This document shows positions 4,005-35,158 of a stretch of 36,493 nt of DNA, piece by piece (position 1 is the stretch's first letter; the number at the start of each line of letters is the position of its first letter). Source of the DNA: Actinomycetota bacterium. Its GTDB lineage: Bacteria; Actinomycetota; Actinomycetes; Nanopelagicales; Nanopelagicaceae. The stretch lies in assembly GCA_009704505.1 (NCBI GenBank), contig WLEB01000007.1, forward strand, positions 1-36,493. Reading direction: 5' to 3'. The position numbers were made by a program, and so were the translations under genes. The notes beneath the pieces were generated by a model, which saw only the letters and a program-made list of their open reading frames with translations, was not told the origin of the DNA and searched no databases.

Positions 4005-5512
4005 TACTTGTCCTCAATGCTTGGAACTGGATCAGTGAAACCTAATTGGGAAATGATGTTTGTGGTTGCTGGATTAATGATCTTTAGCAATGGCGATGGG
4101 TAGAAGCCCAAAACCACAATGATTGCTACAACGGGTGCGATGGCTACTTTTTCGCGAAGATTTAAATCCTTTAAGTTCTCATTGCCTGGAGTCGTTGGTC
4201 CATGCAAAGCTTTTTGAACAGGAATTAAAATATAAAGTGCTGCCAGAACTATTCCAAAGGTTGCAATGACTGCATGAACTGGATATCTAGTAAAAGTACC
4301 CACCAAGACTAAAAATTCACCGACAAAGCTTGAAAGTCCAGGAAGGGCTAGAGAAGAAAGTCCCGCAAAGAAGAAAGTCCATGCCATCACTGGAGTGACA
4401 CGTTGCAAGCCACCGAAATCTGAAATTGTGGAAGATCCACGACGCGAAATCATCCACCCCGCCACTAAGAACAAGGCCGCTGTTGAGAAGGCATGGTTGA
4501 ACATGTAAAGAACTGCGCCAGAGTGACCTTGCGTTGTCATTGCAAAAATTCCAAGTGTTATAAATCCAAAGTGAGAGATTGACGTATATGCAATTAAACG
4601 CTTAATATCTTTTTGGCCGATTGCAAGGAATGCTCCGTAGAGAATTGAAATGACTGCCAGAATCAAAATCAGCGGTGTGAAGGTTTTGCTTGCTTCAGGA
4701 AATAGCGTTAAGCAGTATCGAATCATTCCAAATGTTCCAACTTTATCTAGAACACCTAGAAGTAGAACTGATGTTCCTGGGGATGCCGATCCTGCTGCGT
4801 CAGGTAGCCAAGTGTGGAATGGCCAGACTGGAGCCTTGATTGCAAATGCGATGAAGAATCCTAGGAACAAAAGATTTTGAGTTGTAGAGCTCATTTGCAA
4901 CTGAGATAGCTCGTTAATATCAAATGTATGTCCAAATTGATCGCCAGACATAACGTAAAGCGCGATTATTGAGGCAAGCATCAATAATCCTCCGACAAGA
5001 CTGTAAATCAAGAACTTAACCGCGGCTGCAGAGCGTTCGCCTGTTCCATATCCTCCGATTAAGAAGTAGACAGGAATTAACATCGCTTCAAAAATCACAT
5101 AGAACAAGAAAACATCTGTTGCTGCAAAAACACCGATCATCATTGTTTCAAGCACAAGAATTAAAATATAAAAGGTTTTTACACTCCAACGTCCACCGTG
5201 TGCCTCATTCCAACCAGCAAGCACCACGATTGGTGCCAAAACAGTTGACATTAAAATAAGCACTAATGCAATTGCATCGATTCCCACCGCAAAATTGATT
5301 CCAAAACTTGGGATCCAGGCGTATTTTTCAACAAATTGAAGTTCTACGTTTTCGCGTTCAAAACTCAATGTCATTCCAATTGTCACGAGCAATACGGCAA
5401 TTGTTGTGATGAAAGCAGCCTGCTTTGCAGCTTTTTCGTTTGCCTTAGGCAAAACTGAAACAACGGCAGCGCCAACTAACGGCAAGAACATCAATAAAGT
5501 TAACCAATTCAT
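4004..5512 (-). CDS. nuoM: NADH-quinone oxidoreductase subunit M
   Basis: This is the second antiporter-like proton-pumping subunit of complex I, 502 aa from the ATG at 5512. Glu142 in VIFEAMLIPVYFLIGGYG and Lys226 in AIKAPVWPFHTWLPDA are the conserved channel residues. An in-frame ATG at 5530 would add MGGGFI, but that start lies inside nuoL; the ATG at 5512 overlaps the nuoL stop as TAATG, exactly like other junctions in this operon, and begins with the usual MNWLTLLMFLPLVG hydrophobic helix. The C-terminus ends in a short charged tail (PVPSIEDK). Confidence 0.96.
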   Translation of the reverse strand: MNWLTLLMFLPLVGAAVVSVLPKANEKAAKQAAFITTIAVLLVTIGMTLSFERENVELQFVEKYAWIPSFGINFAVGIDAIALVLILMSTVLAPIVVLAGWNEAHGGRWSVKTFYILILVLETMMIGVFAATDVFLFYVIFEAMLIPVYFLIGGYGTGERSAAAVKFLIYSLVGGLLMLASIIALYVMSGDQFGHTFDINELSQLQMSSTTQNLLFLGFFIAFAIKAPVWPFHTWLPDAAGSASPGTSVLLLGVLDKVGTFGMIRYCLTLFPEASKTFTPLILILAVISILYGAFLAIGQKDIKRLIAYTSISHFGFITLGIFAMTTQGHSGAVLYMFNHAFSTAALFLVAGWMISRRGSSTISDFGGLQRVTPVMAWTFFFAGLSSLALPGLSSFVGEFLVLVGTFTRYPVHAVIATFGIVLAALYILIPVQKALHGPTTPGNENLKDLNLREKVAIAPVVAIIVVLGFYPSPLLKIINPATTNIISQLGFTDPVPSIEDK

Positions 5513-7703: not shown

Positions 7704-8494
7704 TACTTTTCCTCCTCAACCTGTGTTGAAATCTTTTTGAGATCAAAAGTATTTGAATCAAGCATGTCGCCGCGGGCCTTCAAACTTGCATTTATTGAGT
7801 TAGGTGCTGGAGTTCCATCCGGCAAAAGAGCTGGTACATCAACAGCGTTGTGGCGTGCATAAACTCCAGGCGCAGGTAACCCTGCAGCTGTTGCTAATGA
7901 TTCACCACGGAATCGGTTGATTGATTGTTGACGCTGAGTCGACTTCTTGGAAGAACGTGGTTGATGAGCAAGAACCATTGCACCTAGTGCAGCTGTTACT
8001 AAGAGCGCTGAAATAACCTCGAAGGGCCAAACAAATCTAGAAAATAGTAAGTAACCAATGCCTTCAACATTTCCATCTGCATTTGCCGCAGATAGTCCAA
8101 TTGCATCGCGACCAAGTGTTGCGCGGCCTAGTAATGAAACCATCAAGCCACCAAAGCCAACGGCTGCAGTAATTGCAATCGGACGAAGGCCTTTGATTGT
8201 CTCTGTCAATGAATCGGATGAATCAACACCGACAAGCATAAGAATAAATAAGAAGAGCATCATTACTGCTCCGGTGTAAACAACTACTTGAACAATTCCC
8301 AAGAACACCGCATCTTGTGCGATGTAAAAAACTGCAAGCACAACCATGACAAAGGCCATGAGAATTGCAGAGTGAACAGCTTTTTTAACCAAGAGCATCG
8401 CTAGGGCTGCAAGGACAGCAAGAGGTCCAAGAATCCAAAACATTACAGCTTCTGGAGTTGCAGTCTGTCCGACTTCAAGGGCTAATTGCATCAT
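7703..8494 (-). CDS. nuoJ: NADH-quinone oxidoreductase subunit J
   Basis: This 263-aa membrane subunit has five helices in the first ~175 residues. The [19 protein letters not shown] segment in the third helix is the most conserved part of NuoJ and contains the pi-bulge seen in complex I structures. A hydrophilic tail of about 85 residues ([12 protein letters not shown] onward) follows; actinobacterial NuoJ proteins often carry such a tail, whose role is unknown. Two adjacent ATGs are possible at 8494 (ATGA overlap with the nuoI stop) and 8491 (TGATG overlap); the difference is one Met. Confidence 0.95.
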
Positions 8495-9105
8495 TTATCA
8501 AGCTCCTGCGAAGGATGTGCTTGCTTTACATCACCGTTGTAATAATTCGTATCGTTCATATCTGGATACATCGGGTGGGGCGGCATCAACATTCCTGCAC
8601 GTAAAGGTGCCAAAAGATCTGCTTTTTCAAAGATTAACTTCGCACGTGAATCATCGGCTAGTTCATATTCATTTGTCATTGTAAGTGCGCGAGTTGGGCA
8701 TGCCTCAATGCATAGACCACAAAAAACACAACGCAGATAATTAATTTGATAAACCTTGCCGTATCGCTCACCTGGTGACATACGGTTTTCTTCAGTGTTG
8801 TTTTCACCCTCTACGTAGATTGCATCTGCAGGACATGCCCAAGCACATAGCTCACATCCAATACATTTCTCTAAACCATCTGGGTGTCTATTGAGTTGAT
8901 GACGGCCATGGAATCGCTCTTCTGTTGGAGCTTTTACTTCAGGATATTCAACAGTCAAAGGCTTTTTAAACATGGTTGAAAAAGTGACCCAAAAGCCACG
9001 CATATGACCAAAGAAACCTACTGTCGGCTTCTGATCAACTTCATAAAACTCAACATCATTGATGCCTAAATCTTTTGGCTTTAATGGTTCGAGGTTTTCA
9101 GTCAC
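8491..9105 (-). CDS. nuoI: NADH-quinone oxidoreductase subunit I (two 4Fe-4S clusters)
   Basis: NuoI is the TYKY-type ferredoxin subunit that carries clusters N6a and N6b toward NuoB. From the GTG at 9105 it is 204 aa. Two motifs are seen: C81-x2-C84-x2-C87-x3-C91-P and C126-x2-C129-x2-C132-x3-C136-P. I choose the GTG at 9105 because AGGGGG at 9111-9116 lies 5 nt upstream and the overlap with nuoH is then only 8 bp. The alternative ATG at 9132 would add nine residues and overlap nuoH by 35 bp, with no ribosome site in front of it. Confidence 0.95.
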
Positions 9106-10357
9106 GGTTGCCCCCTGAGTTTTTTGAAACATTGATTGTTGATATTTCTATTGGCAAAATCGGAAGTGAGGGAACAGCAAAATTAGGTGCATCTTTATTG
9201 TCGCCTTCTGGAACCTCAGACTCTTTCTTCTTCTTTACCTTTTCAAAACTAACATTTATTACAAGAATGAAGAAAATAACAATGCTTGCAAATGCTACGA
9301 CCACAGCAGTTGAAGCATTCTCAAGTGAAAGAACTCGAAGAGTTGCAACAACTAATATCCACAAAATCGAAGCTGGAATCAGAACTTTCCATCCAAATTG
9401 CATGAACTGGTCATAGCGCAAACGTGGCAGCGTTCCGCGCAACCACACGAATACGAAGAAGAAGGTAACAACCTTTAGTAGGAACCAAATCGCTGTAAAC
9501 CAACCTCCTAGCCAGCTTTCAGTAAATCCAAGCCCAGGTGGGGCGTGATATCCACCTAAGAACAATGTTGTTGCAAGTGCTGAAACTGTAACGATGTTTA
9601 CATATTCGGCTAAGAAGAACAGTGCAAACTTAAGAGATGAATACTCAGTATGGAAACCACCAACTAATTCACCTTCTGCTTCTGCAAGATCAAATGGAGC
9701 GCGGTTGGTCTCACCGACCATAGAGATAGCAAAGATTACAAATGATGGGAAGAGAACGACTGCATACCACCATGAAGTTTGAGCTGCCACAATCTCAGAT
9801 GTAGACATTGATCCTGCGTAGATAAACACCGCAACCAGTGATAGCCCCATAGCAATTTCATAAGAGATTACTTGAGCGCTAGAACGCAGTCCACCTAGAA
9901 GTGGATAGGTCGAACCAGAAGACCATCCGGCTAAGACAATTCCATAAACACCAACTGATGCAACAGCTAAAATGTATAAAACTCCAACTGGAATATCCGT
10001 CAACTGCATCGCTGTCTGACGTCCAAACATTGTTACTTCACCAGTAATTGGGATAACTGCAAAAGACATAAAACATGTTGTCGCACTAATAATCGGAGCA
10101 ATTATGAAAACGATTTTATCTGCAGCAGTAGGAATGATGTCTTCCTTTAGCGCCAACTTCACGCCATCTGCCAAAGCTTGAATTAATCCGAATGGTCCAA
10201 CACGGTTCGGTCCAGGACGCTGTTGCATACGAGCAACAATTCGGCGCTCTCCCCATACTGACATCAAAGTGAGAAGTACGCAGACAGCAAAAACAATGAG
10301 AGCTTTTACAAGGATTAACCAGCCTGGATCTGACCCAATAAGTTGCGCAGTTGTCAT
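9098..10357 (-). CDS. nuoH: NADH-quinone oxidoreductase subunit H
   Basis: NuoH forms, with NuoB and NuoD, the quinone-binding chamber of complex I. The 419-aa protein has eight membrane helices and the conserved cytoplasmic segments [19 protein letters not shown] and [19 protein letters not shown]; the acidic residues of the second lie near the quinone channel. A C-terminal charged tail ([18 protein letters not shown]) of about 65 residues extends beyond the minimal NuoH, as is common in actinobacteria. The ATG overlaps the nuoG stop (ATGA). Confidence 0.97.
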
Positions 10358-22938: not shown

Positions 22939-22977
22939 TCTCCCTTATTCGACTACTGGCGATAGCCTACGGTGGCA
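22939..22977. promoter_or_regulatory. Very short divergent menB/menE promoter region
   Basis: Only about 40 bp separate the two start codons. TAGCCT at 22963-22968 on the plus strand lies 9 nt before menE ATG 22978, and its complement on the minus strand reads TAGGCT, 19 nt before the GGGAG ribosome site of menB. If these hexamers act as -10 elements, the two promoters overlap almost completely. GGC-GATA-GCC around 22958-22967 forms a short inverted repeat. Evidence is limited to pattern. Confidence 0.35.
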
Positions 22978-24045
22978 ATGGATAACTCGTCACAACGAAA
23001 TATTCTCCGGGTCAGCCCTGAATGGGAAACTCCCAAATTAGCGGGAGAAATCACATCAGCTCTCGCCGGCGATGGGCCCACTCTGGGTTTTGGCCAGATA
23101 ACAAGTAGTTATGCCCCCAGTGATATCGCCGTAGTAATTGGAACCTCTGGCACCACGGGTGATCCAAAGGAAGTCGCACTGACTGCGCAAGCAATTACTT
23201 CTTCAGCAAAATCTTCAAATAAATTTCTTGGAGCAAATCATGGCGATACTTGGAGTTTATTGTTACCGCTCACCCATATTGCAGCGGTGAATGTTTTTGT
23301 GCGCGCTCTTCAACTTGGAACCGTTCCGTTAGATCTTCGAAACATTGAAGGTGATTATCCAGATGCAGACTTTACTGCGATTGTTCCGACTCAATTATTT
23401 CGCGCTCTCAATGGTGAATCGCGGCTGCTAAAACATTTACAAAATGCTGACAAAGTTTTAATTGGTGGGGCATCACTATCGCAGGGATTGCGAAGACAAG
23501 CAGAGGCTGCAGGTATAAAAACTGTTAGTACTTATGGAATGACAGAAACCTGCGGAGGTTGTGTCTATGAAGGACAAGCAATTTCTGATGTCGAATATGA
23601 GGTAAAAAACGGACGAGTTCGCTTAAAGGGAAAAGTTTTGGCAACTACATACCTAAATGCACCATGGAGTTTGGACAATGGTTGGTTTGAAACGTCAGAT
23701 TTAGGGGAGATAGTAGATAACAAACTTGTTGTGTTGGGCCGAGCAGATGATGTCATTGTCTCTGGTGGTGAAAATATTTCTTTAAGTGCAATTGAAAACT
23801 CTCTTGCAATTGCATTTCCCCAATTGCAAGCGGCTGCTTTTTCTAGTAACGATCCTCAATGGGGCCAAAGTTTGCAGTTAGCTATTGTGGGTAAGGCCAG
23901 CGACGAAGAAATCTTGCTTCATCTGGAGAAAGATTTAGGATCGATTGCAAAACCAAAAAGTATTCATCGTCTCTCTTCGCTACCATTGCGTGGGATTGGA
24001 AAAATTGACCACGAAGCTTTAGCCAAGGAGATTAACCGTGAATAA
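22978..24045 (+). CDS. menE: o-Succinylbenzoate-CoA ligase
   Basis: This acyl-adenylating enzyme activates o-succinylbenzoate with CoA. It is 355 aa from ATG 22978, short for the AMP-binding superfamily but like actinobacterial MenE. Motifs in order: the phosphate loop GTSGTTGDPKEV (55-66), STYGMTETCGG (184-194), GWFETSDLGEI (235-245), the hinge GRADDVIVSGGENIS (254-268) and the C-terminal catalytic Lys342 in RGIGKID. A GTG at 22972 would add two residues. A perfect 10-bp inverted repeat lies in the coding region at 23803-23830. The end overlaps menA by 8 bp. Confidence 0.94.
   Translation: MDNSSQRNILRVSPEWETPKLAGEITSALAGDGPTLGFGQITSSYAPSDIAVVIGTSGTTGDPKEVALTAQAITSSAKSSNKFLGANHGDTWSLLLPLTHIAAVNVFVRALQLGTVPLDLRNIEGDYPDADFTAIVPTQLFRALNGESRLLKHLQNADKVLIGGASLSQGLRRQAEAAGIKTVSTYGMTETCGGCVYEGQAISDVEYEVKNGRVRLKGKVLATTYLNAPWSLDNGWFETSDLGEIVDNKLVVLGRADDVIVSGGENISLSAIENSLAIAFPQLQAAAFSSNDPQWGQSLQLAIVGKASDEEILLHLEKDLGSIAKPKSIHRLSSLPLRGIGKIDHEALAKEINRE
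23803..23830. repeat. Perfect 10-bp inverted repeat inside menE
   Basis: CTTGCAATTG (23803-23812) and CAATTGCAAG (23821-23830) are exact reverse complements separated by 8 nt. The left arm also contains the 10-bp palindrome TGCAATTGCA (23805-23814). In RNA it would form a 10-bp hairpin in the last third of menE. It has no T-tract after it. Confidence 0.8.
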
Positions 24046-24886
24046 ATGGGTGCTTGGGGCACGCGTTCGCACTTTGCCTGCTGCAATTGCACCTGTTGTG
24101 GTCGCATCTTCTCTAGCTGGAAGTGAATTCAATTGGTTTCGCGCCGTTTTGGCATTAACTGTAGGAATTTGGTTGCAGGTCGGAGTTAACTTTGCAAACG
24201 ATTACAGCGATGGTATTAAGGGAACTGATGATGATCGAGTTGGACCTATTCGATTAGTTGCTTCCGGACTTGCCTCAGCAAACTCGGTTAAGCGAGCTGC
24301 TCTAGTTTCGTTTTTAATTGCAAGTATTGCCGGACTTTGGCTTTCCTTACTTACTTCTTTAGTTCTAATTCCTATTGGCATAATCTGCATTGCAGCGGCA
24401 TGGGGGTATACCGGTGGTAAGAATCCATATGGTTATCGGGGTTTTGGCGAGATTTCAGTGTTTATCTTCTTTGGCATTGTTGCAACTGTAGGAAGTTTTT
24501 ATGTTCAAACTGAGAAAATAACGTTAATGAGTTTTATAGTTGCAATCCCGATGGGAGCACTTTCATGTGCAATATTGACAGTCAATAACATAAGAGATTT
24601 AGACAAAGATAAGGTCGCCGGAAAGCGCACCTTTGCTGTGCGTGTAGGTGATTCAAAAGCCCGGAGAATCTATGTCTCGCTTTTAATTCTTGCCCATATT
24701 GCAGCTGTAGCAACTTTTATTCCAGCAACACTATTAACCCTGATTGCAGCCCCTTTGACTTTCACTCTTTCAAAACTAGTTTTAAGCCAGGCCTCAGGGG
24801 CCTCATTGATCCCAGCATTGAGCAGAACTGGAAAGCTGCAACTATTATTTGCAACCCTTTTTGCTATTGCTCTAGCGATACAATAA
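24038..24886 (+). CDS. menA: 1,4-Dihydroxy-2-naphthoate prenyltransferase
   Basis: This UbiA-family membrane prenyltransferase of 282 aa joins the polyprenyl chain to DHNA with loss of CO2. It has eight to nine membrane helices and the two Asp-rich motifs, NFANDYSDGIKGTDDD (51-66) and NNIRDLDKDKVAGKRTFAV (183-201), the MenA form. The start is GTG at 24038, inside the last codons of menE, with AAGGAG at 24025-24030, 7 nt upstream. Its substrate chain is probably made by the polyprenyl synthase at 1498-2487. Confidence 0.96.
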   Translation: MNKWVLGARVRTLPAAIAPVVVASSLAGSEFNWFRAVLALTVGIWLQVGVNFANDYSDGIKGTDDDRVGPIRLVASGLASANSVKRAALVSFLIASIAGLWLSLLTSLVLIPIGIICIAAAWGYTGGKNPYGYRGFGEISVFIFFGIVATVGSFYVQTEKITLMSFIVAIPMGALSCAILTVNNIRDLDKDKVAGKRTFAVRVGDSKARRIYVSLLILAHIAAVATFIPATLLTLIAAPLTFTLSKLVLSQASGASLIPALSRTGKLQLLFATLFAIALAIQ

Positions 24887-24893
24887 TCCCATG
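24879..24893 (+). promoter_or_regulatory. Putative leaderless promoter for the PLDc_N gene (-10 TACAAT)
   Basis: TACAAT at 24879-24884 overlaps the menA stop and ends 6 nt before ATG 24891. No ribosome site precedes this ATG. The small gene may therefore have its own leaderless transcript besides read-through from menE-menA. Confidence 0.5.
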
Positions 24894-25154
24894 CTAAGAG
24901 TCCTTTCATTAGTTTTAGTCTTTGGTGTAACGATCTATGCACTTCTAGATTGTGCTCGAGCAGATGAATCTCAGATCAAAAATCTTCCTAAATGGGGATG
25001 GCTTTTAATAATTATTCTTCTTGGCCCACAGGCTGTAGCAATTGGACCAATTGCTTATTTAGTTGCTGGAAGAAATAAGCCAAAGAGAAATAAAAACCCT
25101 AAACGGCGTATTTTGCCGCCTGATGATGATCCGGATTTTTTAAGAAAACTTTAA
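24891..25154 (+). CDS. Small PLDc_N-type membrane protein
   Basis: This 87-aa protein has an N-terminal hydrophobic helix (residues 1-19), a short polar loop with DCARADES, then LPKWGWLLIIILLGPQAVAIGPIAYLVAG as the second helix, and a basic tail (KPKRNKNPKRR). The pattern matches the phospholipase D N-terminal (PLDc_N) two-helix domain found alone in many actinobacteria; no phospholipase domain follows and no function is known. It is 4 bp after menA. Its stop TAA lies in a TTAA shared with the stop of convergent ccsB. Confidence 0.85.
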   Translation: MLRVLSLVLVFGVTIYALLDCARADESQIKNLPKWGWLLIIILLGPQAVAIGPIAYLVAGRNKPKRNKNPKRRILPPDDDPDFLRKL

Positions 25155-26041
25155 AGCCCAGAGTAAGTGTGCTTGCCTGTTCCCCAAATGTTTATATAGA
25201 CGTAGTTAAACAAGAATGTTGATCCGGCAAATAAGCAAAGCCACGCAGCGCGGCGGCCGCGCCAACCAATTGTTACGCGCGCATGTAAGTAGGCTGCATA
25301 TGCAACCCAAGTAATAAAAGCCCACGTCTCTTTTGGATCCCAACCCCAGTATCTTCCCCACGCGCTCTCTGCCCATATCGCGCCAGAAACAACTGAAAAA
25401 GTCCATAGTGGAAATACAAATGCAACCAAGCGATAAGAAAGTTGATCGAGTACTTCTAATGAAGGTAAGCGCTTAGCCCACTCATTTCGCTCACTCTTGG
25501 ACTCTATTCGATCTAATACAAGGTATGCAGTTGCAATAACATTTGAAAGTAAGAAAACTCCACCTGAAATTATTGCCGTTGATACATGGATAACTAGCCA
25601 TTCAGATTTTAATGCTGGTACCAAAGGCGCACTCGGTACATAAAGAACTGTGATTGCTGTACCTAATGTAAGTAAGACAGAAACTGAAACAAGTAGGCCC
25701 AACCATCTAAGGTCATACTTTCGAAGCGCAGCAAGATAAGCACCAGAAAATGCAAGAGCCCCAGTTATTGAAAACTCATACATATTGCCCCATGGAGCTC
25801 TGCTTGCCGAAATACCGCGAGCAACTACTCCAACAAGGAGTAAAAGAAATCCAAGGATCATTAACGCCGTTGCAATTCGAGCCGCACGACCATTTCGCGC
25901 ATAATCTAATACTGATTTTCCAGCTGCTGGGACTTTAACTGCCCAGGCGGTCTCAATTGCATGGACAAGGAATGAGAGAGCAAAAACTGCCGTTGCCGAA
26001 TAAATAGAATAGTTTGAGATAACTGCCCAACTACGTGACAT
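25151..26041 (-). CDS. ccsB: Cytochrome c biogenesis protein CcsB/CcsA (heme handling)
   Basis: This 296-aa protein has about eight membrane helices and the tryptophan-rich heme motif WGWDPKETW at residues 232-240, with PWGNMYEF at 83-90. H27, H152 and H253, near the membrane helices, are candidate heme ligands. With ResB it forms the System II cytochrome c synthase that carries heme across the membrane and attaches it to apocytochromes. The start ATG directly follows the resB stop. It is the last gene of its operon and its stop overlaps that of the convergent small gene. Confidence 0.95.
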   Translation of the reverse strand: MSRSWAVISNYSIYSATAVFALSFLVHAIETAWAVKVPAAGKSVLDYARNGRAARIATALMILGFLLLLVGVVARGISASRAPWGNMYEFSITGALAFSGAYLAALRKYDLRWLGLLVSVSVLLTLGTAITVLYVPSAPLVPALKSEWLVIHVSTAIISGGVFLLSNVIATAYLVLDRIESKSERNEWAKRLPSLEVLDQLSYRLVAFVFPLWTFSVVSGAIWAESAWGRYWGWDPKETWAFITWVAYAAYLHARVTIGWRGRRAAWLCLFAGSTFLFNYVYINIWGTGKHTYSGL

Positions 26042-27511
26042 CTACTTATCTCCCTTTACTCTCTGAATGAACTGTGACAACTCTTCTTCAAGTCCTGGTG
26101 CTGCATTCTTGGCTAATCCTGCAACTTCCACGTTCTGGCCTACCCGAATCCAAATTCGTCGTCGTCGAGTAAATAGAGAAGCAAGTAGTCCAATGATGGC
26201 AACAATAGCGCCCAATAAAGCAAACTTCTTTCCAGGATCTGTGACAAAGCTAATGTTGACCCATTGCACATAACCTTCAAAAGTTATTACACCACCAGCA
26301 TAAGCAAAAGATTCACCAGGTTTTAAGGCCTTAAGGCCAACTTGTTGCATCTTTGACGTATCAATTCTGTAGACAGATTGAGGAGTACCTGAATCCAATC
26401 CAAGATCACCCACCCATGCAGCCAAAAGTAACCGTGGATCTAAAGCCTCTGGATAAACACTGATGCCACCTTCCTCGCCATCTCTTGCATAGGTTGGAAG
26501 AAATGATCCGACGAAACCAACTGCGGGATCAGCATCTGGAGCTTTGATCGCACCAATTGAACGTAGCTGTGAATCCTGAGGTAGAAATGGAACAGGACCT
26601 TGAAAAGCGACATTTAACTTTGAATCAACAACAGTGACAACAGGAGAATAACCATTTGCTTGGAGGTAAATTCTTGTATCCCCAATTGTTAAAGGCGAAT
26701 TGACCTTCATGGTTTTTTTCTCGACTAATCCTTGCTCACCTTGTTGCAGCCGAACATCAAGGGTGTAATCCTCTGGTGCGCCAGTTATAACATTATATTT
26801 TGCAACAAATCTATCTGCAGTTAACGTGAAATCTGGAAGATTTGATTCACTATAAAGTTTTCCATATGTCAGTGAGTCATAGCTAGTCACGTTATTAACA
26901 AAACGCTCCCCGATATTTAAAATTGCCTCTCCGCGCATTCCAAAAAGAGAGCTAAAGCTAATTCCCATTAATACAAGAATGAGTGCAAGGTGAAAAAATA
27001 GATTACCTGTTTCGCGGGCAAAACCTTTTTCTGCCGAAATAGATTCCGATGTTTCCAAAACTCTAAACCCGTTTTTCTTAAACCACTCTCGTGCGTTCTC
27101 CAGTTCAGATCCACTGGCGCTCCACTCCTGAAAATGCTCCATTCGGGAGAGGTTTTTGGGTGTTGCTGGTGGCAAGGCTCGCGCATTCTTCAAATGTTCA
27201 ATTGTTCTTGGTAAAACACAACCAATAAGTGAGATGAATAAGAGAATATAGACAGCACTAAACCAAGGTGAGCCGTAAACATCAAAGAGCCAGAATCGAT
27301 CCAGCCACTCTGCCTGCTGAGGTGAATTTTTAAAGTAATCAGAGACCTGCATCGGGTTTTGAGTTCGTTGTGGAAACAAAGATCCTGGAATTGCAGCAAC
27401 TCCAAGAAGTAGCAGCAAGATTAAAGCAGTGCGCATGCTGGTTAATTGGCGCCATAAATATCTGGCAAGGCTTGTGCCATCTAGTTCGGGGATTTGTACT
27501 TGATTACTCAT
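26042..27511 (-). CDS. resB: Cytochrome c biogenesis protein ResB
   Basis: This 489-aa protein is the ResB partner of the System II cytochrome c synthase. Three helices lie in the first ~200 residues (RTALILLLLLGVAAIPGSLF begins the first), followed by a large extracytoplasmic domain of about 230 residues and a last helix near 430-450, then a basic cytoplasmic tail (FTRRRRIWIR). The sequence SLFPQRTQNP after the first helix is typical. The ATG overlaps the ccdA stop as TAATG. Confidence 0.93.
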   Translation of the reverse strand: MSNQVQIPELDGTSLARYLWRQLTSMRTALILLLLLGVAAIPGSLFPQRTQNPMQVSDYFKNSPQQAEWLDRFWLFDVYGSPWFSAVYILLFISLIGCVLPRTIEHLKNARALPPATPKNLSRMEHFQEWSASGSELENAREWFKKNGFRVLETSESISAEKGFARETGNLFFHLALILVLMGISFSSLFGMRGEAILNIGERFVNNVTSYDSLTYGKLYSESNLPDFTLTADRFVAKYNVITGAPEDYTLDVRLQQGEQGLVEKKTMKVNSPLTIGDTRIYLQANGYSPVVTVVDSKLNVAFQGPVPFLPQDSQLRSIGAIKAPDADPAVGFVGSFLPTYARDGEEGGISVYPEALDPRLLLAAWVGDLGLDSGTPQSVYRIDTSKMQQVGLKALKPGESFAYAGGVITFEGYVQWVNISFVTDPGKKFALLGAIVAIIGLLASLFTRRRRIWIRVGQNVEVAGLAKNAAPGLEEELSQFIQRVKGDK

Positions 27512-28236
27512 TAGATCACCGGAATAAAATCAGAAATAAGTCCACGAATAGAGTTCATTAACTCTCCCCAAAAACCCAGCACCTGCATTAACCCGATCAT
27601 GATCAAGAAAATGCCGCCAATTTTTGAAATCAGATCACCGCGGCGATAGATGATTGAACGAAGTTTTGCAGATTTGTCTAGGAATAATCCTGATGCAATA
27701 AATGGCAAACCCAAACCAAGACAGTAACCAAATGAAAGCACGGCCCCGCGAAGTGCACTTGATTCTTGAAAAGCTAGAGTTTGTACTGCAGCAAGTCCGG
27801 GTCCAATGCATGGAGTCCACCCGATTCCAAATAGAACTCCTAACAATGGTGCTCCTAAAAGGCCACCAGTCGTTCGCATTTTCGGACGTATCGTTGGTGA
27901 AAATGGAAAACGTCCATAGAAGATGAAACCTAAAAGTATTGTCATAATTCCCAATATTCTAGAAATGATCTCCTCGTTTGCTACTAGTTGGTTACCTAAT
28001 TGACCAAATAAAGCACCAAAAGAAACAAAGACTGCACTAAAGCCGAAAACAAATAAAAGTGAGCCAAGAAATACTTTGCCGCGGCTTACAGAAAATCCTG
28101 CAGCAAAGGATAAATAGCCAGGGACCAAGGGCAATACGCACGGTGACAAAAATGAAACCACTCCAACAATGAATGCAAAAGGAATTGCAGTCACAAGTGC
28201 ACCACTAAAGAGTTGCTCGACTAAGAATTCTTTCAT
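27511..28236 (-). CDS. ccdA: Thiol-disulfide transport protein CcdA
   Basis: This 241-aa protein has six membrane helices and the two redox cysteines of the family, C33 in SFLSPCVLPLVPG and C143 in GIGWTPCIGPG. CcdA passes reducing power from cytoplasmic thioredoxin across the membrane to the extracytoplasmic ResA-like protein, which keeps apocytochrome CXXCH cysteines reduced. The ATG overlaps the stop of the thioredoxin-like gene (ATGA), in keeping with joint function. Confidence 0.95.
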   Translation of the reverse strand: MKEFLVEQLFSGALVTAIPFAFIVGVVSFLSPCVLPLVPGYLSFAAGFSVSRGKVFLGSLLFVFGFSAVFVSFGALFGQLGNQLVANEEIISRILGIMTILLGFIFYGRFPFSPTIRPKMRTTGGLLGAPLLGVLFGIGWTPCIGPGLAAVQTLAFQESSALRGAVLSFGYCLGLGLPFIASGLFLDKSAKLRSIIYRRGDLISKIGGIFLIMIGLMQVLGFWGELMNSIRGLISDFIPVI

Positions 28237-28769
28237 CCCTGAACAACTCTCTCAATTAACTGGGACAAAGATGCCACAGTGACAACTCCAGAGATTCGAG
28301 CTGCCACACGTCCCTGTTGATCTAAAACTACAGTTGTGGGAATTGCATTTGCCGATAGTGATCCTTTGAAGCCCACCAAAATAGAGTCGTCTATTACTGT
28401 TGGATAAGGAATCTTAAATCTTCGTTCAAAAGCCTCCGCGTTTGCTGGATTATCTCGCGTTAGTATTCCAATGAATTCAACTTCACTGTATTTGTTTGCT
28501 AAGGCAACAAGTGTTGGGGCCTCTGCCCGACATGGTGAACACCATGATGCCCAGACATTAACTACGGCAACTTTATTTTTTTGATAGGTATAGGTCTGGC
28601 CAGATAATGTCATTCCAGAAATTGTTGGTGCTATCTTTCTGTCATCAGCTTTAATAAATGTAATTGCCCCATCACCGGACACAAAACTTTCTTCAGCTAC
28701 TGAACTTCCTCCACCACCACAACCAGTCAGCGTTATGGCAAGGATTAGGGCAGTGAGTGATCTCTTCAT
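28233..28769 (-). CDS. TlpA/ResA-like thiol-disulfide lipoprotein
   Basis: This 178-aa protein begins with a lipoprotein signal peptide with lipobox LTGC (C17), followed by a Gly/Ser linker. The thioredoxin-like domain carries WCSPC (C77, C80) in the AhpC/TSA-like TlpA fold (VVNVWASWCSPCRAEAPTL) and a cis-Pro region NAIPTT. It is predicted to be anchored on the outer face of the membrane, receiving electrons from CcdA and reducing apocytochrome c. It overlaps both neighbours by a few bases (TAATG and ATGA). Confidence 0.93.
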   Translation of the reverse strand: MKRSLTALILAITLTGCGGGGSSVAEESFVSGDGAITFIKADDRKIAPTISGMTLSGQTYTYQKNKVAVVNVWASWCSPCRAEAPTLVALANKYSEVEFIGILTRDNPANAEAFERRFKIPYPTVIDDSILVGFKGSLSANAIPTTVVLDQQGRVAARISGVVTVASLSQLIERVVQG

Positions 28770-29392
28770 TACTTGTTTTCTGGCAGTAGATGTCTGGCAG
28801 GTTCAGAGTAAGTGATCCCTGAGATAAAGCCATCATCATCAAAGTGAATACTTGTTACAGAAGCAAGAGTGCATTCGCGTTTGCGGGGATCATGTAAAAG
28901 TCTTCGGTTTTCAATTGCGCTTCTTAAAATCCAAATTGGTAGTTGATGAGAGACACATATTGCATCTTTGCCCTTTGCCGCATCGCGCGCTGCAAAAACT
29001 GCAGCTAACATACGATTAATCTGTTGATCGTATGGCTCGCCCCATGATGGCTTCCATGGATTCCATAGATGTCTCCAGGAGGCAGGATGGCGTAGCACTC
29101 CATCTCCAACTCCAAATGGTTTTCCTTCAAAAATATTTGATGCCTCGATCAATCTTTCATCTGTTGTTATTGCAATGTTGTGCGTTTTTGCAATTGGAGC
29201 TGCGGTTTCTTGTGCGCGTTGCAAGGGTGAAACATGCAGAGCACCTAAATCAATGTTTTTTGACCATTCGCCAATTGTTGAAGCCATCTCTTGCCCGCGC
29301 TCAGATAATCTCCAACCCGGTTGTCGCCCATAAAGAATTTTGTCAGGGTTATGGACTTCGCCGTGTCTGAGAACGTGCACTGTGGAACTCAT
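28769..29392 (-). CDS. Histidine phosphatase family protein
   Basis: This 207-aa phosphoglycerate-mutase-like protein has the RHG motif at residues 9-11 (VLRHGEV), the partner Arg in SPLQRAQET (R59), and the second catalytic His149 in CVSHQLP. The acid Glu is likely in the ERLIEASNIFEG region. The substrate cannot be read from sequence. The same type of gene precedes the cytochrome c maturation genes in mycobacteria, to my knowledge (Rv0525 before Rv0526-Rv0529). It is the first gene of this operon; TATGCT lies 6 nt before its ATG. Confidence 0.92.
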   Translation of the reverse strand: MSSTVHVLRHGEVHNPDKILYGRQPGWRLSERGQEMASTIGEWSKNIDLGALHVSPLQRAQETAAPIAKTHNIAITTDERLIEASNIFEGKPFGVGDGVLRHPASWRHLWNPWKPSWGEPYDQQINRMLAAVFAARDAAKGKDAICVSHQLPIWILRSAIENRRLLHDPRKRECTLASVTSIHFDDDGFISGITYSEPARHLLPENK

Positions 29393-30249: not shown

Positions 30250-32445
30250 ATGGAAATGCGCTCATTCTCCGACTACTTGCGTAGCGTTGATGATGCTGCC
30301 CTTATTTCCCTGTTTTCTGCCCGACCAGATTTAGTTACTCCGGTACCACCAGATATCGCATCACTTGCCGTACGCGCATGTTCGGCTCCAAGTTTGGCTC
30401 GTTCAATTGATTCATTAAATAAATGGCAACTACAAGTTCTTGAAGCAGTAGTTAATGTCAATGAACCTTTTTCAGAAAAAGCCATCGCATCACTTACAGA
30501 TAAGCAAGCAGCATCGGCTTTAGAGCATTTGACCAAAGTTGGATTAATTTATCCATCCGATGATGGGTTAAGAGTTCCAACCCAGCTGCGCGAAGTGCTC
30601 GGCGCTGAACCTGCAGGTCTCGGGCCAGCATCAATGGTGAAATTAAAATTAAGTGAGTTAGCACAGGCGCCCCAAGATTCGAAAAAGATTTTAGAGCGAT
30701 TAATGTGGGGGCCTCCCAGAGGAAGTGTTGGTGACATTAAAAATCCTGGCCCAGGGATTGCTTGGCTTTTGGAGAGAAAATTTCTTGTTGCACTCGATCA
30801 GCGCACGGTAATTCTGCCGCGTGAGGTAGCAATTGAACTTCGCGGTAAGAAAATACATAAGGAGTTGTGTGCACAAGCTCCTGAATTCACTGGGGCAAAG
30901 CGGGAAAAGAAACAAGTAGATCTGGCTGCAATTGCTAATGTTTCAACGGTTTTACGCTGGGTTGAAGAATTACTAAATTTTTGGGCAGAGGAACCTGCAG
31001 ATGCTTTGCGAGCTGGTGGATTGGGTGTTCGAGACTTAAAAACACTTTCAACTCACTTGGGTGTTGATGATGCATGTACGGCCTTTATCGCTGAACTTGC
31101 ATACCTAACTTCGCTAATTAGTATCGATGCAAATGATCAGATTTTGCCTAGTAATAAATTTGATATTTGGTTAATGCAATCTCCTGCAGATAGATGGCAG
31201 ATGTTGGCATCTGCTTGGTTGATTACTTCACGTGTTAGCGGTCTAGTTGGCCGTTTAGAATCTAAAAATGTTGCTGCTTTGGGTCCAGAGTTAGATCGCG
31301 TCAATGCTTCTAAAGTTAGGGGATTAACTCTTTCGTTGCTCAAAGAGAACCCTGGAATAGCACCTGATTGGAATAGTTTTAAATCATCTTTAGATTGGCG
31401 CGCACCAGTTCGACGTAACTCATCTTTGCAAGATGAGCTTGCTGAGTGGACTTTGCGTGAAGCGGAATGGTTAGGAATAACAGGCCAAGGAGCAATTTCT
31501 AAGTATGGCATTGGTTTCCTTAATGGAGATGATTTAGATTTAATAAATCAAGACTTGCCAAAAACTGTTGATCACATTTTGATTCAAAGTGATAACACTG
31601 CAATCGCCCCCGGCCCACTTGAACATGAGATCTCACAATCACTTGCAATGATGGCTGAGATCGAAAGTCGAGGTGGTGCGACTGTATATCGATTTACAGA
31701 AGCGACGATTCGCCGTGCACTAGATCATGGTAAAACTGGAGATGAAATAAAGTCGTTTCTTGCAAAAACTTCTAAGACTCCTATGCCTCAACCCCTTGAA
31801 TATTTGATTGCAGATGTTGCTAAAAAACATGGAAAGTTACGTGTTGGTAATACTTCTTCATTCATAAGATGTGAAGATACTGCACTCATTTCACAGATTA
31901 TTACTGATAAAAAGCTTGAGATTTTAGGCCTTCGACGGATCGCACCAGAAGTCGTTATTTGCGAAATGGATGCAACAGATGCAATGCGCATTTTACGTGA
32001 ATGTGGTTACTTGCCAGCGGGTGAATCTGCCAATGGAATGATCTTGACAGGAGCTAAATCTAATCGAGCCTTAACTAAACCAAGACCTCCACGCATTATT
32101 GGAGAAGTTGAAGTTCCAACAGATAAATCATTAACCGCTGCAATTCGCACATTACGAACTGGCGAAAAATCTACTCACCGCCAAACACGTTTGCGCCAAG
32201 TGGCTAATGAAGCTTTGGGTGTGCTTCCGCGAACGACAGCAAATGAAACTATGGATGTTTTACAACAGTTTATTTCTGAGCAAAAAACCCTTTCAATTGG
32301 ATATGCCGATAACAACGGTGGAGTGACCCACAGAATCATTGATCCGATAAGAATTAGTGCAGGCGCACTCATTGCGCGCGATCATGCAACCGGGGAGGTT
32401 CAATCCTTCAGAATTCCCCGCATCACCGGCGTGGCACCGTTATAG
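30250..32445 (+). CDS. XPB-like domain protein with C-terminal WYL-like domain
   Basis: This 731-aa protein is a helicase-associated (Helicase_C_3/XPB-Ssl2 N-terminal-like) protein of actinobacteria, related to mycobacterial Rv0862c as far as I recall. It has no Walker A or DEAH box, so it is not a helicase itself. The first ~200 residues look like winged-helix repeats. Residues about 441-590 (ILIQSDNTAIAPG ... ILRECGYLPAG) align by eye with the N-terminal domain of the XPB helicase encoded nearby. Residues about 668-731 (FISEQKTLSIGYAD ... FRIPRITGVAPL) look like a WYL-type ligand-sensing domain. Predicted cytoplasmic, DNA-associated; function unknown. Confidence 0.88.
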   Translation: MEMRSFSDYLRSVDDAALISLFSARPDLVTPVPPDIASLAVRACSAPSLARSIDSLNKWQLQVLEAVVNVNEPFSEKAIASLTDKQAASALEHLTKVGLIYPSDDGLRVPTQLREVLGAEPAGLGPASMVKLKLSELAQAPQDSKKILERLMWGPPRGSVGDIKNPGPGIAWLLERKFLVALDQRTVILPREVAIELRGKKIHKELCAQAPEFTGAKREKKQVDLAAIANVSTVLRWVEELLNFWAEEPADALRAGGLGVRDLKTLSTHLGVDDACTAFIAELAYLTSLISIDANDQILPSNKFDIWLMQSPADRWQMLASAWLITSRVSGLVGRLESKNVAALGPELDRVNASKVRGLTLSLLKENPGIAPDWNSFKSSLDWRAPVRRNSSLQDELAEWTLREAEWLGITGQGAISKYGIGFLNGDDLDLINQDLPKTVDHILIQSDNTAIAPGPLEHEISQSLAMMAEIESRGGATVYRFTEATIRRALDHGKTGDEIKSFLAKTSKTPMPQPLEYLIADVAKKHGKLRVGNTSSFIRCEDTALISQIITDKKLEILGLRRIAPEVVICEMDATDAMRILRECGYLPAGESANGMILTGAKSNRALTKPRPPRIIGEVEVPTDKSLTAAIRTLRTGEKSTHRQTRLRQVANEALGVLPRTTANETMDVLQQFISEQKTLSIGYADNNGGVTHRIIDPIRISAGALIARDHATGEVQSFRIPRITGVAPL

Positions 32446-32457
32446 ACTTAGATCATG
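32443..32457 (+). promoter_or_regulatory. Putative leaderless promoter of the M20 peptidase gene (-10 TAGACT)
   Basis: TAGACT at 32443-32448 begins with the TAG stop codon of the preceding gene and ends 6 nt before ATG 32455. No ribosome site precedes this ATG. An internal promoter may thus separate the M20-XPB pair from the upstream gene. Confidence 0.5.
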
Positions 32458-33516
32458 TTGGCAGACCTAGAGGCACTCGTAAGGTTGGAATCACCAACGC
32501 AAGATTTAGAAGCGTGTAAAGATGTTGTTCGCCTTGCAAATGAAATCGCAGAGCGCGTCTTAGGATCACCGGCTCAGATACACGATGTAAATGGCAGGCC
32601 ATTATTTTGGTGGGGCTCACCTAATCCAGAAGTTATTGTCTTGGCTCATCTAGATACCGTATGGCCTAAAGGATCTTTTCAACCATTATGGCAAGTTGAA
32701 GGAACTACAGCTCGCGGGCCCGGTGTTTTTGATATGAAGGCAGGATTCATTCAAGCTCTCTATGCAATGAAAACAATCAAAGGACCTGTTGCACTTGTTG
32801 CTACAACAGATGAAGAAACGGGAAGTTTGACTAGCAAAGGTTTTATAAAGGAAATCTCTGCCAAAGCTAAGTCGGTTCTAGTGGTAGAAGCATCACTCGA
32901 TGGAAAAGTTAAGACCGGTCGTAAAGGTACAGCGATGTATCAAATTAAAATTCTTGGAAAAGCATCACATGCCGGCCTAGAACCTGAAAAGGGAGTTAAT
33001 TCAACGATTGAAATGGCCCATGCTGTAATTGCTGTTTCAAACCTTTCTAATGAAGCATTTGGAACAACTGTTGTGCCAACCACACTCACTGCTGGAAATT
33101 CAACAAATACAGTTCCCGATTTAGCAGTGCTAGATGTCGACATCCGTTCATTTTCTATGGCAGAGCTTGAAAGAGTTGATGCAGCGATCAAATCAATTGT
33201 CCCGGTTAATCCAGAGACTACATATGAAGTCACGGGCGGTTTTAATCGACCTCCATTGGAAAGTTCATCGACTATGGATTTGTATGAGCGTGCTGAAAAA
33301 GTTGCAAAAGAAATCGGTATGCCTGCCTTGGGTCATGCATCTGTCGGAGGTGCTAGTGATGGAAACTTTGCAGCTGCTGCGGGCGCACAGGTTTTGGATG
33401 GATTAGGAGCTGTTGGAAGTGGCGCCCACGCCAAGCACGAATGGGTTGATATCAGTACCCTTGAAGATCGAAGCAAACTTTTAAATGCACTAATAAAGGA
33501 TTTATTAAATGAGTGA
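32455..33516 (+). CDS. M20 family metallopeptidase (carboxypeptidase G2-like)
   Basis: This 353-aa dizinc peptidase has AHLDTVWPKG (H65, D67), GVFDMKAG (D93, bridging ligand), TTDEETGS (catalytic E120 and ligand E121), VVEAS (E145), the dimerisation-domain KASHAG (H172) and the C-terminal GAHAKHEWVDI with the last zinc His (H325). The HLDTVWPKG form is that of glutamate-carboxypeptidase-type members. No signal peptide is seen, so it is probably cytoplasmic, used on peptides or acyl-amino acids. Its end overlaps the XPB gene by 8 bp. Confidence 0.93.
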   Translation: MLADLEALVRLESPTQDLEACKDVVRLANEIAERVLGSPAQIHDVNGRPLFWWGSPNPEVIVLAHLDTVWPKGSFQPLWQVEGTTARGPGVFDMKAGFIQALYAMKTIKGPVALVATTDEETGSLTSKGFIKEISAKAKSVLVVEASLDGKVKTGRKGTAMYQIKILGKASHAGLEPEKGVNSTIEMAHAVIAVSNLSNEAFGTTVVPTTLTAGNSTNTVPDLAVLDVDIRSFSMAELERVDAAIKSIVPVNPETTYEVTGGFNRPPLESSSTMDLYERAEKVAKEIGMPALGHASVGGASDGNFAAAAGAQVLDGLGAVGSGAHAKHEWVDISTLEDRSKLLNALIKDLLNE

Positions 33517-35158
33517 TGGTCCGTTAATTGTTCAGAGTGATAAAACACTTCTGTTAGATATCGACCATCCATTATCCGTTGAGTGTCGGCGAGCGATTGC
33601 ACCCTTTGCAGAATTAGAACGCTCTCCTGAACACATTCACACATACCGATTAACTCCACTGGGATTATGGAATGCTCGTGCTGCTGGCCATGATGCAGAG
33701 CAAGTCATTGACACTTTAATCAAGTACTCACGATATGCAGTCCCGCATTCAATTCTTATCGATGTTGCAGAGACAATGTCACGCTATGGGCGCCTTCGTC
33801 TTGAGATGGATCCTGTACATGGATTGATTTTGATTACTACTGACACGGCAGTCCTTGAAGAAGTCATTCGTGCAAAAAAGATTGCTCCACTTCTTGGCGC
33901 CAGAATTGATTCAGAAACGATCGCAGTGCTGCCAAGTCAGCGCGGCCAGATAAAGCAATCACTTTTACGTCTAGGTTGGCCGGCTGAAGATTTCGCAGGT
34001 TACGTGGATGGCCAAGCCCATGAAATCTCTTTAGTGCAAAATGATTGGAAGATCCGTCCATACCAAGAGTTGGCAGCAGAAGGTTTCTGGCATGGTGGAT
34101 CAGGAGTTGTGGTTCTTCCTTGCGGTGCGGGTAAAACAATTGTTGGAGCAGCGGCTATGGCTCATGCAAAAGCAACCACGCTAATTTTGGTTACCAATAC
34201 GGTTGCAGCTCGTCAGTGGCGAGATGAACTTTTAAAACGAACAACATTAAATGAAGATGAAATTGGCGAATACTCAGGGGCAAAAAAAGAGATTAGACCT
34301 GTCACTATTGCTACCTATCAAGTGATGACAAAGAAGAAAAATGGAGTTTATGCTCACTTAGATCTCTTTGATTCTTATGACTGGGGCTTGATTATTTATG
34401 ATGAAGTGCATCTGCTTCCAGCGCCAATCTTTAGATTTACTGCTGATATTCAATCGCGCCGCAGACTAGGCCTAACAGCAACACTGGTTAGAGAAGATGG
34501 AATGGAGGGTGAGGTTTTTTCACTCATCGGTCCTAAACGATTTGATGTTCCATGGAAAGAGATCGAATCTCAGGGTTATATTGCACCGGCAGAATGCATT
34601 GAAGTCAGAGTGAATTTAACTGAGGCAGAACGCTTAACTTATGCAACAGCAGAACCAGAAAATCGCTACCGCACTTGTGCGACCACTCGTACTAAGCGAG
34701 AAGTAGTAGAGCTACTAGTTCAAAAGCATAAGGGCGAACAGATTCTTGTAATTGGCCAATATTTAGATCAACTCGATGAACTATCTGAAGTTCTTGGTGT
34801 TCCTGTGATTAAGGGTGACACCCCTGTAAAGGAGCGCGAAGTGCTGTTCAATAAGTTTAGAAGTGGTGAAGTAACCTGTTTAGTTGTCTCTAAGGTTGCT
34901 AATTTTTCTATTGATCTTCCAGATGCAACAATTGCGATTCAAGTTTCGGGTGCATTTGGAAGTCGCCAAGAAGAAGCACAGAGACTAGGGAGAATTCTGC
35001 GGCCTAAGTCTGATGGGCGAAGTGCAACTTTTTATTCAGTCATTTCCCGCGACACAATAGATCAAGATTTTGCACAAAACCGTCAGCGCTTCTTAGCTGA
35101 GCAAGGATATTCTTACAAAATTATTGATGCTGACGATGTTTTTCAAGGGAAGATTTAA
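33509..35158 (+). CDS. DNA repair helicase XPB
   Basis: This 549-aa superfamily 2 helicase matches the length of mycobacterial XPB. An N-terminal XPB-specific domain (about 1-165) is followed by Walker A PCGAGKT (204-210), the DEVH box (298-301), motif III TAT (323-325), the XPB RED triplet (R328-E329-D330) and motif VI QRLGRILRP (491-499). XPB unwinds DNA 3' to 5'; the bacterial enzyme has repair-related activity in vitro but its cellular role is unclear. AAAGGA at 33495-33500, 8 nt before the ATG, gives the start. The last 38 bp overlap the convergent glutaredoxin gene. Confidence 0.95.
   Translation: MSDGPLIVQSDKTLLLDIDHPLSVECRRAIAPFAELERSPEHIHTYRLTPLGLWNARAAGHDAEQVIDTLIKYSRYAVPHSILIDVAETMSRYGRLRLEMDPVHGLILITTDTAVLEEVIRAKKIAPLLGARIDSETIAVLPSQRGQIKQSLLRLGWPAEDFAGYVDGQAHEISLVQNDWKIRPYQELAAEGFWHGGSGVVVLPCGAGKTIVGAAAMAHAKATTLILVTNTVAARQWRDELLKRTTLNEDEIGEYSGAKKEIRPVTIATYQVMTKKKNGVYAHLDLFDSYDWGLIIYDEVHLLPAPIFRFTADIQSRRRLGLTATLVREDGMEGEVFSLIGPKRFDVPWKEIESQGYIAPAECIEVRVNLTEAERLTYATAEPENRYRTCATTRTKREVVELLVQKHKGEQILVIGQYLDQLDELSEVLGVPVIKGDTPVKEREVLFNKFRSGEVTCLVVSKVANFSIDLPDATIAIQVSGAFGSRQEEAQRLGRILRPKSDGRSATFYSVISRDTIDQDFAQNRQRFLAEQGYSYKIIDADDVFQGKI

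Follow-up and report, generated by a model that had tools for sequence, protein, structure and literature searches.

Background

In human TFIIH, the N-terminal domain (NTD; residues 1-165) of the helicase XPB and the clutch of p52 (residues 306-399) have one and the same fold and pack through their beta-sheets as a pseudo-symmetric dimer that recruits XPB; next to the NTD in XPB comes the DRD, to which DNA binding is ascribed (PMC6422496). According to mutagenesis in yeast, XPB-binding residues lie in the same region of p52 (PMC9557730), and p52 is reported to stimulate the XPB ATPase (PMC7708078). Here we analyse a 36,493-nucleotide (nt) stretch of DNA from an Actinomycetota bacterium of the family Nanopelagicaceae (assembly GCA_009704505.1, contig WLEB01000007.1, positions 1 to 36,493; hereafter the window), which encodes an XPB helicase and, close upstream of it, a non-helicase protein of 731 amino acids (aa), here called the partner. 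We think it likely that the partner is a dedicated bacterial adaptor or regulator of XPB that works like p52 of TFIIH (Tfb2 in yeast). Together with the near-constant pairing of the two genes, the locus suggests a bacterial version of the XPB-p52 machine.

XPB is found in most actinobacteria, and its bacterial role has been called elusive (PMC13024598). The Mycobacterium tuberculosis gene Rv0861c has been named ercc3 (PMC10534295), and the purified M. tuberculosis protein is described as inefficient and active only in large molar excess, as expected of XPB alone if an activator is missing; the same 2012 report states that p52 homologues were not found in bacteria and, as worded there, does not exclude a bacterial XPB partner (PMC3353954). 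In archaea, XPB has a dedicated second protein, Bax1, a nuclease whose own helical N-terminal domain contacts the thumb and the second helicase domain of XPB (PMC7672443, PMC7293015). The two systems differ in that XPB of Archaeoglobus is reported to have no NTD (PMC3353954), and in that neither feature of Bax1 was found in the partner by Pfam or NCBIfam, among whose matches up to E = 1 there is no nuclease family. We found no published description of a bacterial p52 counterpart or of a link between WYL domains and XPB among open-access papers in PMC (preprints not included). The M. tuberculosis homologue of the partner is probably Rv0862c, which adjoins the XPB gene.

A two-lobe domain is common to XPB and its partner

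The initial annotation of the window, made from its sequence alone, had paired an XPB gene with a gene for a non-helicase protein sharing the N-terminal domain of XPB; it did not draw the parallel with TFIIH p52. Both open reading frames (ORFs) are present on the + strand, the partner at 30250-32445 and XPB (549 aa) at 33509-35158, and both products carry PF13625. XPB matches NF045503 over its full length (854.7 bits versus a cut-off of 610) and consists of the NTD with a DRD-like lobe (residues 1-165; 33509-34003), which Pfam, BLASTP and profiles identify as the part common to the partner, and a helicase core assigned by Pfam (residues 181-541; 34049-35131). Pfam and NCBIfam detected no helicase core or ATPase motif family in the partner, which scores 31 bits against NF045503 (cut-off 610), through the N-terminal domain only. 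No named NCBIfam family was found for it, and its relatives elsewhere are filed in databases under the generic name 'helicase-associated domain-containing protein'.

The sole strong domain of the partner is Pfam Helicase_C_3 (PF13625), at residues 443-565 (E = 2.5e-40); in XPB the same family covers residues 6-134 (E = 4.1e-38). The similarity had been put at about 150 residues by eye, and alignment bears this out: a direct BLASTP comparison of the two proteins gives 26% identity over 133 residues (E = 4e-7), and hhalign joins the two domain profiles (47 partner sequences and 44 bacterial XPB NTD sequences) over 148 columns with a probability of 99.3% (E = 1.2e-20). The partner and XPB share a two-lobe domain, well beyond chance.

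The first lobe has the fold of the p52 clutch

Lobe 1 of the partner (residues 438-530; 31561-31839) has the fold of the XPB NTD and the p52 clutch, and lobe 2 (residues 531-597; 31840-32040) is placed on the DRD-like part of XPB, after the NTD, by both fold comparison and hhalign. The partner was modelled with AlphaFold from an alignment with 51 close relatives. When the full model was compared with the PDB using Foldseek, ranks 1-7 were TFIIH chains of the p52 type (best 8ebu_D, E = 3e-8, 504 columns), followed by XPB chains and then by WYL regulators, an order obtained with a full model of low confidence. The chains 8ebt_D (GTF2H4), 7o4i_2 and 6trs are p52/Tfb2 by name; the identity of the others was inferred from chain label and length.

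In VIA, too, the shared domains match in structure. Partner residues 439-528 superpose on p52 residues 303-399 (7nvv_2) with a Z score of 13.3, at 2.3 Å over 89 residues, and the p52 crystal structure 6trs_A is also matched (Z 12.2, 2.3 Å, 88 residues, 24% identity). Residues 440-589 fall on XPB residues 73-290 (6ro4_A) with a Z score of 14.2, the highest of the XPB chains, at 8.3 Å over 145 residues and in two lobes. Most p52 matches stop near partner residue 528; those that span residues 54-528 on p52 46-399 have a root mean square deviation near 17 Å, the overall arrangement not being modelled.

Sequence profiles point in the same direction. The two-lobe profile of the partner (161 positions), searched against 177,635 PDB sequences, finds eukaryotic XPB at E = 2.3e-9. 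Yeast and human p52/Tfb2 and 6trs follow with six sequences in all at E = 0.011-0.019, each entering at profile position 44. The bacterial XPB NTD profile finds XPB at E = 2e-16 and, up to E = 10, no p52 among the same sequences; the weak p52 signal therefore belongs to the partner and is not general to the domain. In the profile alignment, partner residue 483 is a threonine and stands opposite threonine 119 of human XPB, a site of disease mutation whose conservation in the p52 clutch has been noted (PMC6422496).

The clutch is also the most conserved region of the partner. Across 20 diverse partner sequences, 19 of its 93 columns are invariant; the corresponding counts for lobe 2, the N-terminal part, the linker and the WYL-like tail are 8 of 67, 27 of 433, 0 of 53 and 4 of 72. 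Conservation is much higher in XPB than in the partner (about 70% versus 33% across the class); XPB has a mean column identity of 72% and is 92-99% identical within the lineage.

Co-occurrence and proximity of the two genes in Actinomycetota

By the criterion of the initial annotation, a two-part system would be refuted if one gene were often present without the other. The surveys gave the opposite result: the two genes are almost never apart, and their co-occurrence is near-absolute. In a sample of 296 Actinomycetota genomes, the window's own included, with the partner identified by BLAST and XPB counted over its cut-off, the partner is present in 48 and XPB in 49, all 48 being among the 49; neither gene is present in 247, and no genome has the partner only. 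In the sole XPB-only genome (G083), XPB is cut by a contig end that lies 6 bases beyond the gene, for which reason this genome was dropped as a control showing an NTD-less XPB without a partner. A profile search for the partner extends to 71 of the 296 genomes; the additional matches are short (the size of the WYL tail or of lobe 2, E = 1e-8 to 1e-5) and were not counted as partners.

A second sample comprised 196 genomes of the class, scored at strict cut-offs (E up to 1e-8 for the partner and up to 1e-150 for XPB). The partner was found in 174 and XPB in 171: both are present in 171, XPB only in none, the partner only in three and neither in 22, by a tally compared by hand from two tables, one of which alone lists four of the 'neither' genomes. 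Most of the class genomes sampled (171/196) have the pair in single copy, a near-universal presence. As for the genomes with the partner only, XPB is present in two frames beside the partner in one (G412), and in another (G343) the partner runs to the contig end; the third is discussed below.

Fisher tests give 8e-55 for the 296 genomes and 3e-26 for the 196. Because the genomes are related, repeated joint absence is the better argument. Within one genus, G369 lacks both genes and G411 has both; within one family, genus g10 lacks both and genus g221 has both; and G374 lacks both in a family whose other genera have both.

In the first sample, both genes of each of the 48 pairs share a contig, the partner always lies 5' of XPB, and 46 pairs have the two genes on the same strand. 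Measured from match ends, the distance between them is at most 300 nt in 25 pairs, at most 1.5 kb in 34 and at most 7 kb in 47, with one pair 19 kb apart. XPB is visible at 49 of 57 close loci, and the remaining eight end before or near its expected place.

Two minor observations were made in these surveys. Five records titled Bifidobacterium breve or Streptomyces griseus (L003, L041, L048, L050 and L056) hold loci 77-91% identical to the freshwater-type lineage, and their titles look wrong. Family f19 has a shorter XPB-like helicase of approximately 100-110 bits (for example G073:C1:1886316-1887458), without the N-terminal domain and without a partner.

The pair on plasmids and in phage records

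In a plasmid collection, 42 records have an XPB match. Ten of these plasmids, from Nonomuraea, Arthrobacter, Nocardia, Tsukamurella, Actinomyces, Deinococcus (three), Gloeocapsopsis and Paenibacillus, encode a full-length bacterial XPB that is complete from the start of its NTD, and in all 10 a PF13625 partner lies within 7 kb of this intact gene (that of Gloeocapsopsis at 31.5 bits, just under the cut-off of 34.2). The pair is therefore present in four phyla: Actinomycetota, Deinococcota, Bacillota and Cyanobacteriota, the last represented by one cyanobacterium. In Deinococcus and Paenibacillus the gene order is reversed, with XPB first.

A mobilizable plasmid of Corynebacterium diphtheriae carries a truncated XPB (L176:5995-7575) amid insertion sequences and without a partner; it stands beside genes for a penicillin-binding protein and erm(X) and was probably captured along with a transposon. 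The other 31 XPB records are mostly haloarchaeal or shorter matches, and in the one of them that was examined, from Haladaptatus, XPB has neither a PF13625 match nor such a neighbour. The partner itself occurs in 12 plasmid records; among the 10 listed, five are also in the XPB list, and five (Kitasatospora, three Rhodococcus and Streptomyces) have no XPB match on the plasmid, a count that covers the plasmid records only.

Only one of 50,697 phage records contains the partner: MT836665.1, titled 'Bacteriophage sp.', an unannotated record of 9.2 kb that looks like bacterial chromosome, with the partner at 2290-4428 and XPB at 7721-9226. Among 129 pattern matches in viral contigs, no relative was found.

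The WYL-like tail

The WYL-like domain that the initial annotation had suspected at the C-terminus (residues 660-731; 32227-32442) is real. Pfam WYL (PF13280) matches residues 666-729 above its cut-off (23.8 versus 21.8 bits), and residues 662-731 superpose on the WYL small beta-barrel of PafBC (6sj9_B) with a Z score of 11.1, at 1.6 Å over 70 residues. This barrel superposes at 1.5-2.9 Å on those of PafBC, BrxR, DriD and CapW, but the rest of the partner is unlike these proteins, the WYL domain being one tail of a much larger protein.

The tail is detected only in Actinomycetota. It was matched in 19 of 23 relatives at E values up to 10, all from this phylum, and neither Pfam nor a family-specific profile found it in the partners from Deinococcus (three), Paenibacillus and Gloeocapsopsis, whose C-termini may by eye hold such a barrel. 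We therefore think it improbable that the system is built around the tail, and we rejected that idea as the main reading.

A probable p52-like adaptor for bacterial XPB and the alternatives

The clutch-like lobe of the partner (residues 438-530) and the NTD of XPB are two copies of one domain. Judging by the precedent of TFIIH, by the fold match and by the co-occurrence, they most likely form a pseudo-symmetric heterodimer with their beta-sheets packed together, as they do in TFIIH. Such docking would tether XPB, leave its second motor domain less free to move and determine how fast it hydrolyses ATP. The motor would be linked to DNA, to single-stranded DNA at sites of damage or to another machine by the N-terminal helical and winged-helix part of the partner and, in Actinomycetota, by the WYL-like tail, which may also sense nucleic acid. 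A role in DNA repair or in the damage response would fit this arrangement. The initial annotation had guessed at a two-part DNA-damage or nucleic-acid-sensing system in which the shared domain serves either for interaction or as a competing DNA-binding module; the evidence supports the former, but we find none for the latter, because the same pair of domains in TFIIH is described as a protein-protein joint (PMC6422496).

The partner resembles p52/Tfb2 (GTF2H4), the companion of XPB/Ssl2, in several respects: both contain a clutch (HubA) domain of the XPB NTD fold (PMC6422496, PMC9557730), this domain follows a large N-terminal helical region and precedes a short C-terminal part, and the partner is likewise a near-obligate companion of XPB. 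The two proteins differ in what comes after the clutch: the partner continues with a lobe like the DRD of XPB, to which a WYL-like domain is added in Actinomycetota, and has no recognisable p8-dimerisation domain. We do not assign the partner to p52/Tfb2, because it scores under the cut-off of the Pfam Tfb2 model and because neither its N-terminal half nor lobe 2 gave a significant match to p52.

Several results weigh against a p52-like partner. The full AlphaFold model is poor (mean predicted local distance difference test [pLDDT] 52.5, predicted template modelling score 0.25), since the alignment holds close relatives only, and the clutch and tail are better (blocks of approximately 64-82). 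The p52/Tfb2 sequences found with the partner profile stand amid unrelated chains of similar E value in the same list (0.0066, 0.054). The Pfam Tfb2 model gives 10.5 bits against its cut-off of 34.5 (E = 0.27), on one short stretch (residues 480-508), and is not among the 25 most widely matched Pfam families in a scan of 23 relatives. A profile of the N-terminal half does not find p52, and in Foldseek p52 chains recur with this half at ranks 3, 4, 7, 8, 9 and 11-13 with E values of 0.22-0.50. Profiles of lobe 2 (38 sequences) and of the three small deinococcal proteins described below have no match to p8/Tfb5 or to the C-terminal part of p52 in the PDB; de novo TIM barrels head their lists, together with unrelated chains. 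With respect to co-occurrence, G301 is one solid solitary case, in which the contig runs on for 3.3 kb beyond the partner gene but holds no XPB, and a paralogue of the partner on a Streptomyces plasmid, the one examined of the five plasmids absent from the XPB list, has no XPB nearby.

For the N-terminal region (residues 1-437; 30250-31560), the low-confidence model is mostly helical with at least one winged-helix-like unit at approximately residues 32-123. Folded separately, residues 1-440 reach a pLDDT of 49.4, and Foldseek returns no match below E = 0.13 for this half. The winged-helix-like unit superposes on p52 in VIA (Z 8.8, 3.4 Å, 88 residues), but unrelated chains fit equally well, winged helices of NLR, CED-4, ORC and Rio2 being tied with p52. 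With its low pLDDT and with p52 matches that are recurrent but below significance, this half may be related to p52 only tentatively.

Instead, the partner could be a regulator of the WYL type or a sensor of nucleic acid, sharing a pathway with XPB but not binding it, the shared domain being a DNA-binding or homodimerisation module derived by duplication. A WYL domain above the Pfam cut-off with a fold match to PafBC, BrxR and DriD, the winged-helix-like unit near the N-terminus and the alignment of lobe 2 with the DRD, which is described as participating in DNA binding by XPB (PMC6422496), are all in keeping with such a regulator. We nevertheless consider it unlikely: the tail shows little conservation (4 of 72 columns) and the clutch is the best conserved part, the three deinococcal, Paenibacillus and Gloeocapsopsis partners without a detected tail still pair with XPB, and a separate regulator need not accompany XPB in every genome. 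It is very improbable that the genes stay together only through duplication in one operon and joint inheritance, with no shared function. A shared domain and location on the same contig in 48 of 48 pairs would follow from such a history, but not the concordant absences in separate lineages (G369 versus G411; genus g10 versus g221), nor the persistence of the pair at distances of 1-19 kb, in opposite orientations and in both gene orders.

We give the least credence, and very little, to an anti-phage or anti-plasmid defence system. XPB has weak matches to PbeA and other defence helicases, and the partner to CRISPR-associated WYL models, but these are generic helicase and WYL similarities; a near-universal, single-copy pair (171/196) with an XPB 92-99% identical within the lineage shows a housekeeping pattern, and the partner occurs in a single phage record, the bacterial-looking one of 9 kb. 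If the partner is a p52-like adaptor, the pair offers a small two-protein model for the control of XPB by p52 and bears on the origin of TFIIH. With a near-obligate partner that carries the TFIIH joint, the question of what XPB does in actinobacteria, where its role is called elusive (PMC13024598), becomes directly testable.

A third protein in Deinococcus

Three Deinococcus plasmids have an ORF of 99-115 aa between XPB and the partner (L167:7738-8067, L173:6741-7040 and L174:6734-7081), whose product carries only lobe 2 of the shared domain. A lobe-2 profile built from partner sequences, with these small proteins left out, matches them at E = 3.5e-9, 1.2e-6 and 6.5e-6; in a shuffling control, 0 of 999 shuffled versions reach E = 10. 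Their basic starts resemble AT-hooks below significance (0.11, 0.13). From its sequence, the small protein looks like lobe 2 released as a subunit. In one deinococcal partner (L167, 8064-10508), residues 672-715 form a further stretch that by eye resembles lobe 2 of XPB, at 3.1 bits only.

The strand-helix-strand-strand-helix order of lobe 2 is reminiscent of p8/TTDA. Lobe 2 as a p8 counterpart was not kept in the main reading: no p8/Tfb5 is found by profile, and the lobe falls on the DRD-like part of XPB. It is a tentative idea, which we hold to be rather less than even in likelihood, that the XPB-p52 joint predates eukaryotes, TFIIH having grown around an obligate pair, of XPB and a p52-like protein built on one duplicated domain, such as bacteria have; the small deinococcal protein may then be the counterpart of p8 in position and role, with descent unproven.

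Gene neighbourhood in the window

The partner and XPB genes are separated in the window by an ORF for an M20-family peptidase (32455-33516, + strand; ORF list and Pfam), of which the initial annotation makes no mention, and the three genes, all on the + strand, are closely packed: the peptidase ORF begins 9 nt past the end of the partner gene and overlaps the start of XPB by 8 nt. This ORF recurs at Nanopelagicales-like loci and is not found between the two genes in many other actinobacteria; no functional link of the peptidase to the pair is evident. A gene for a HAD-IB hydrolase lies directly upstream of the partner, in a neighbourhood (22972-29392) that contains menaquinone genes (menE-like and menA) and cytochrome c biogenesis genes (ccsB and a thioredoxin-like gene). 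The latter group presumably includes a gene for a CcdA-like protein.

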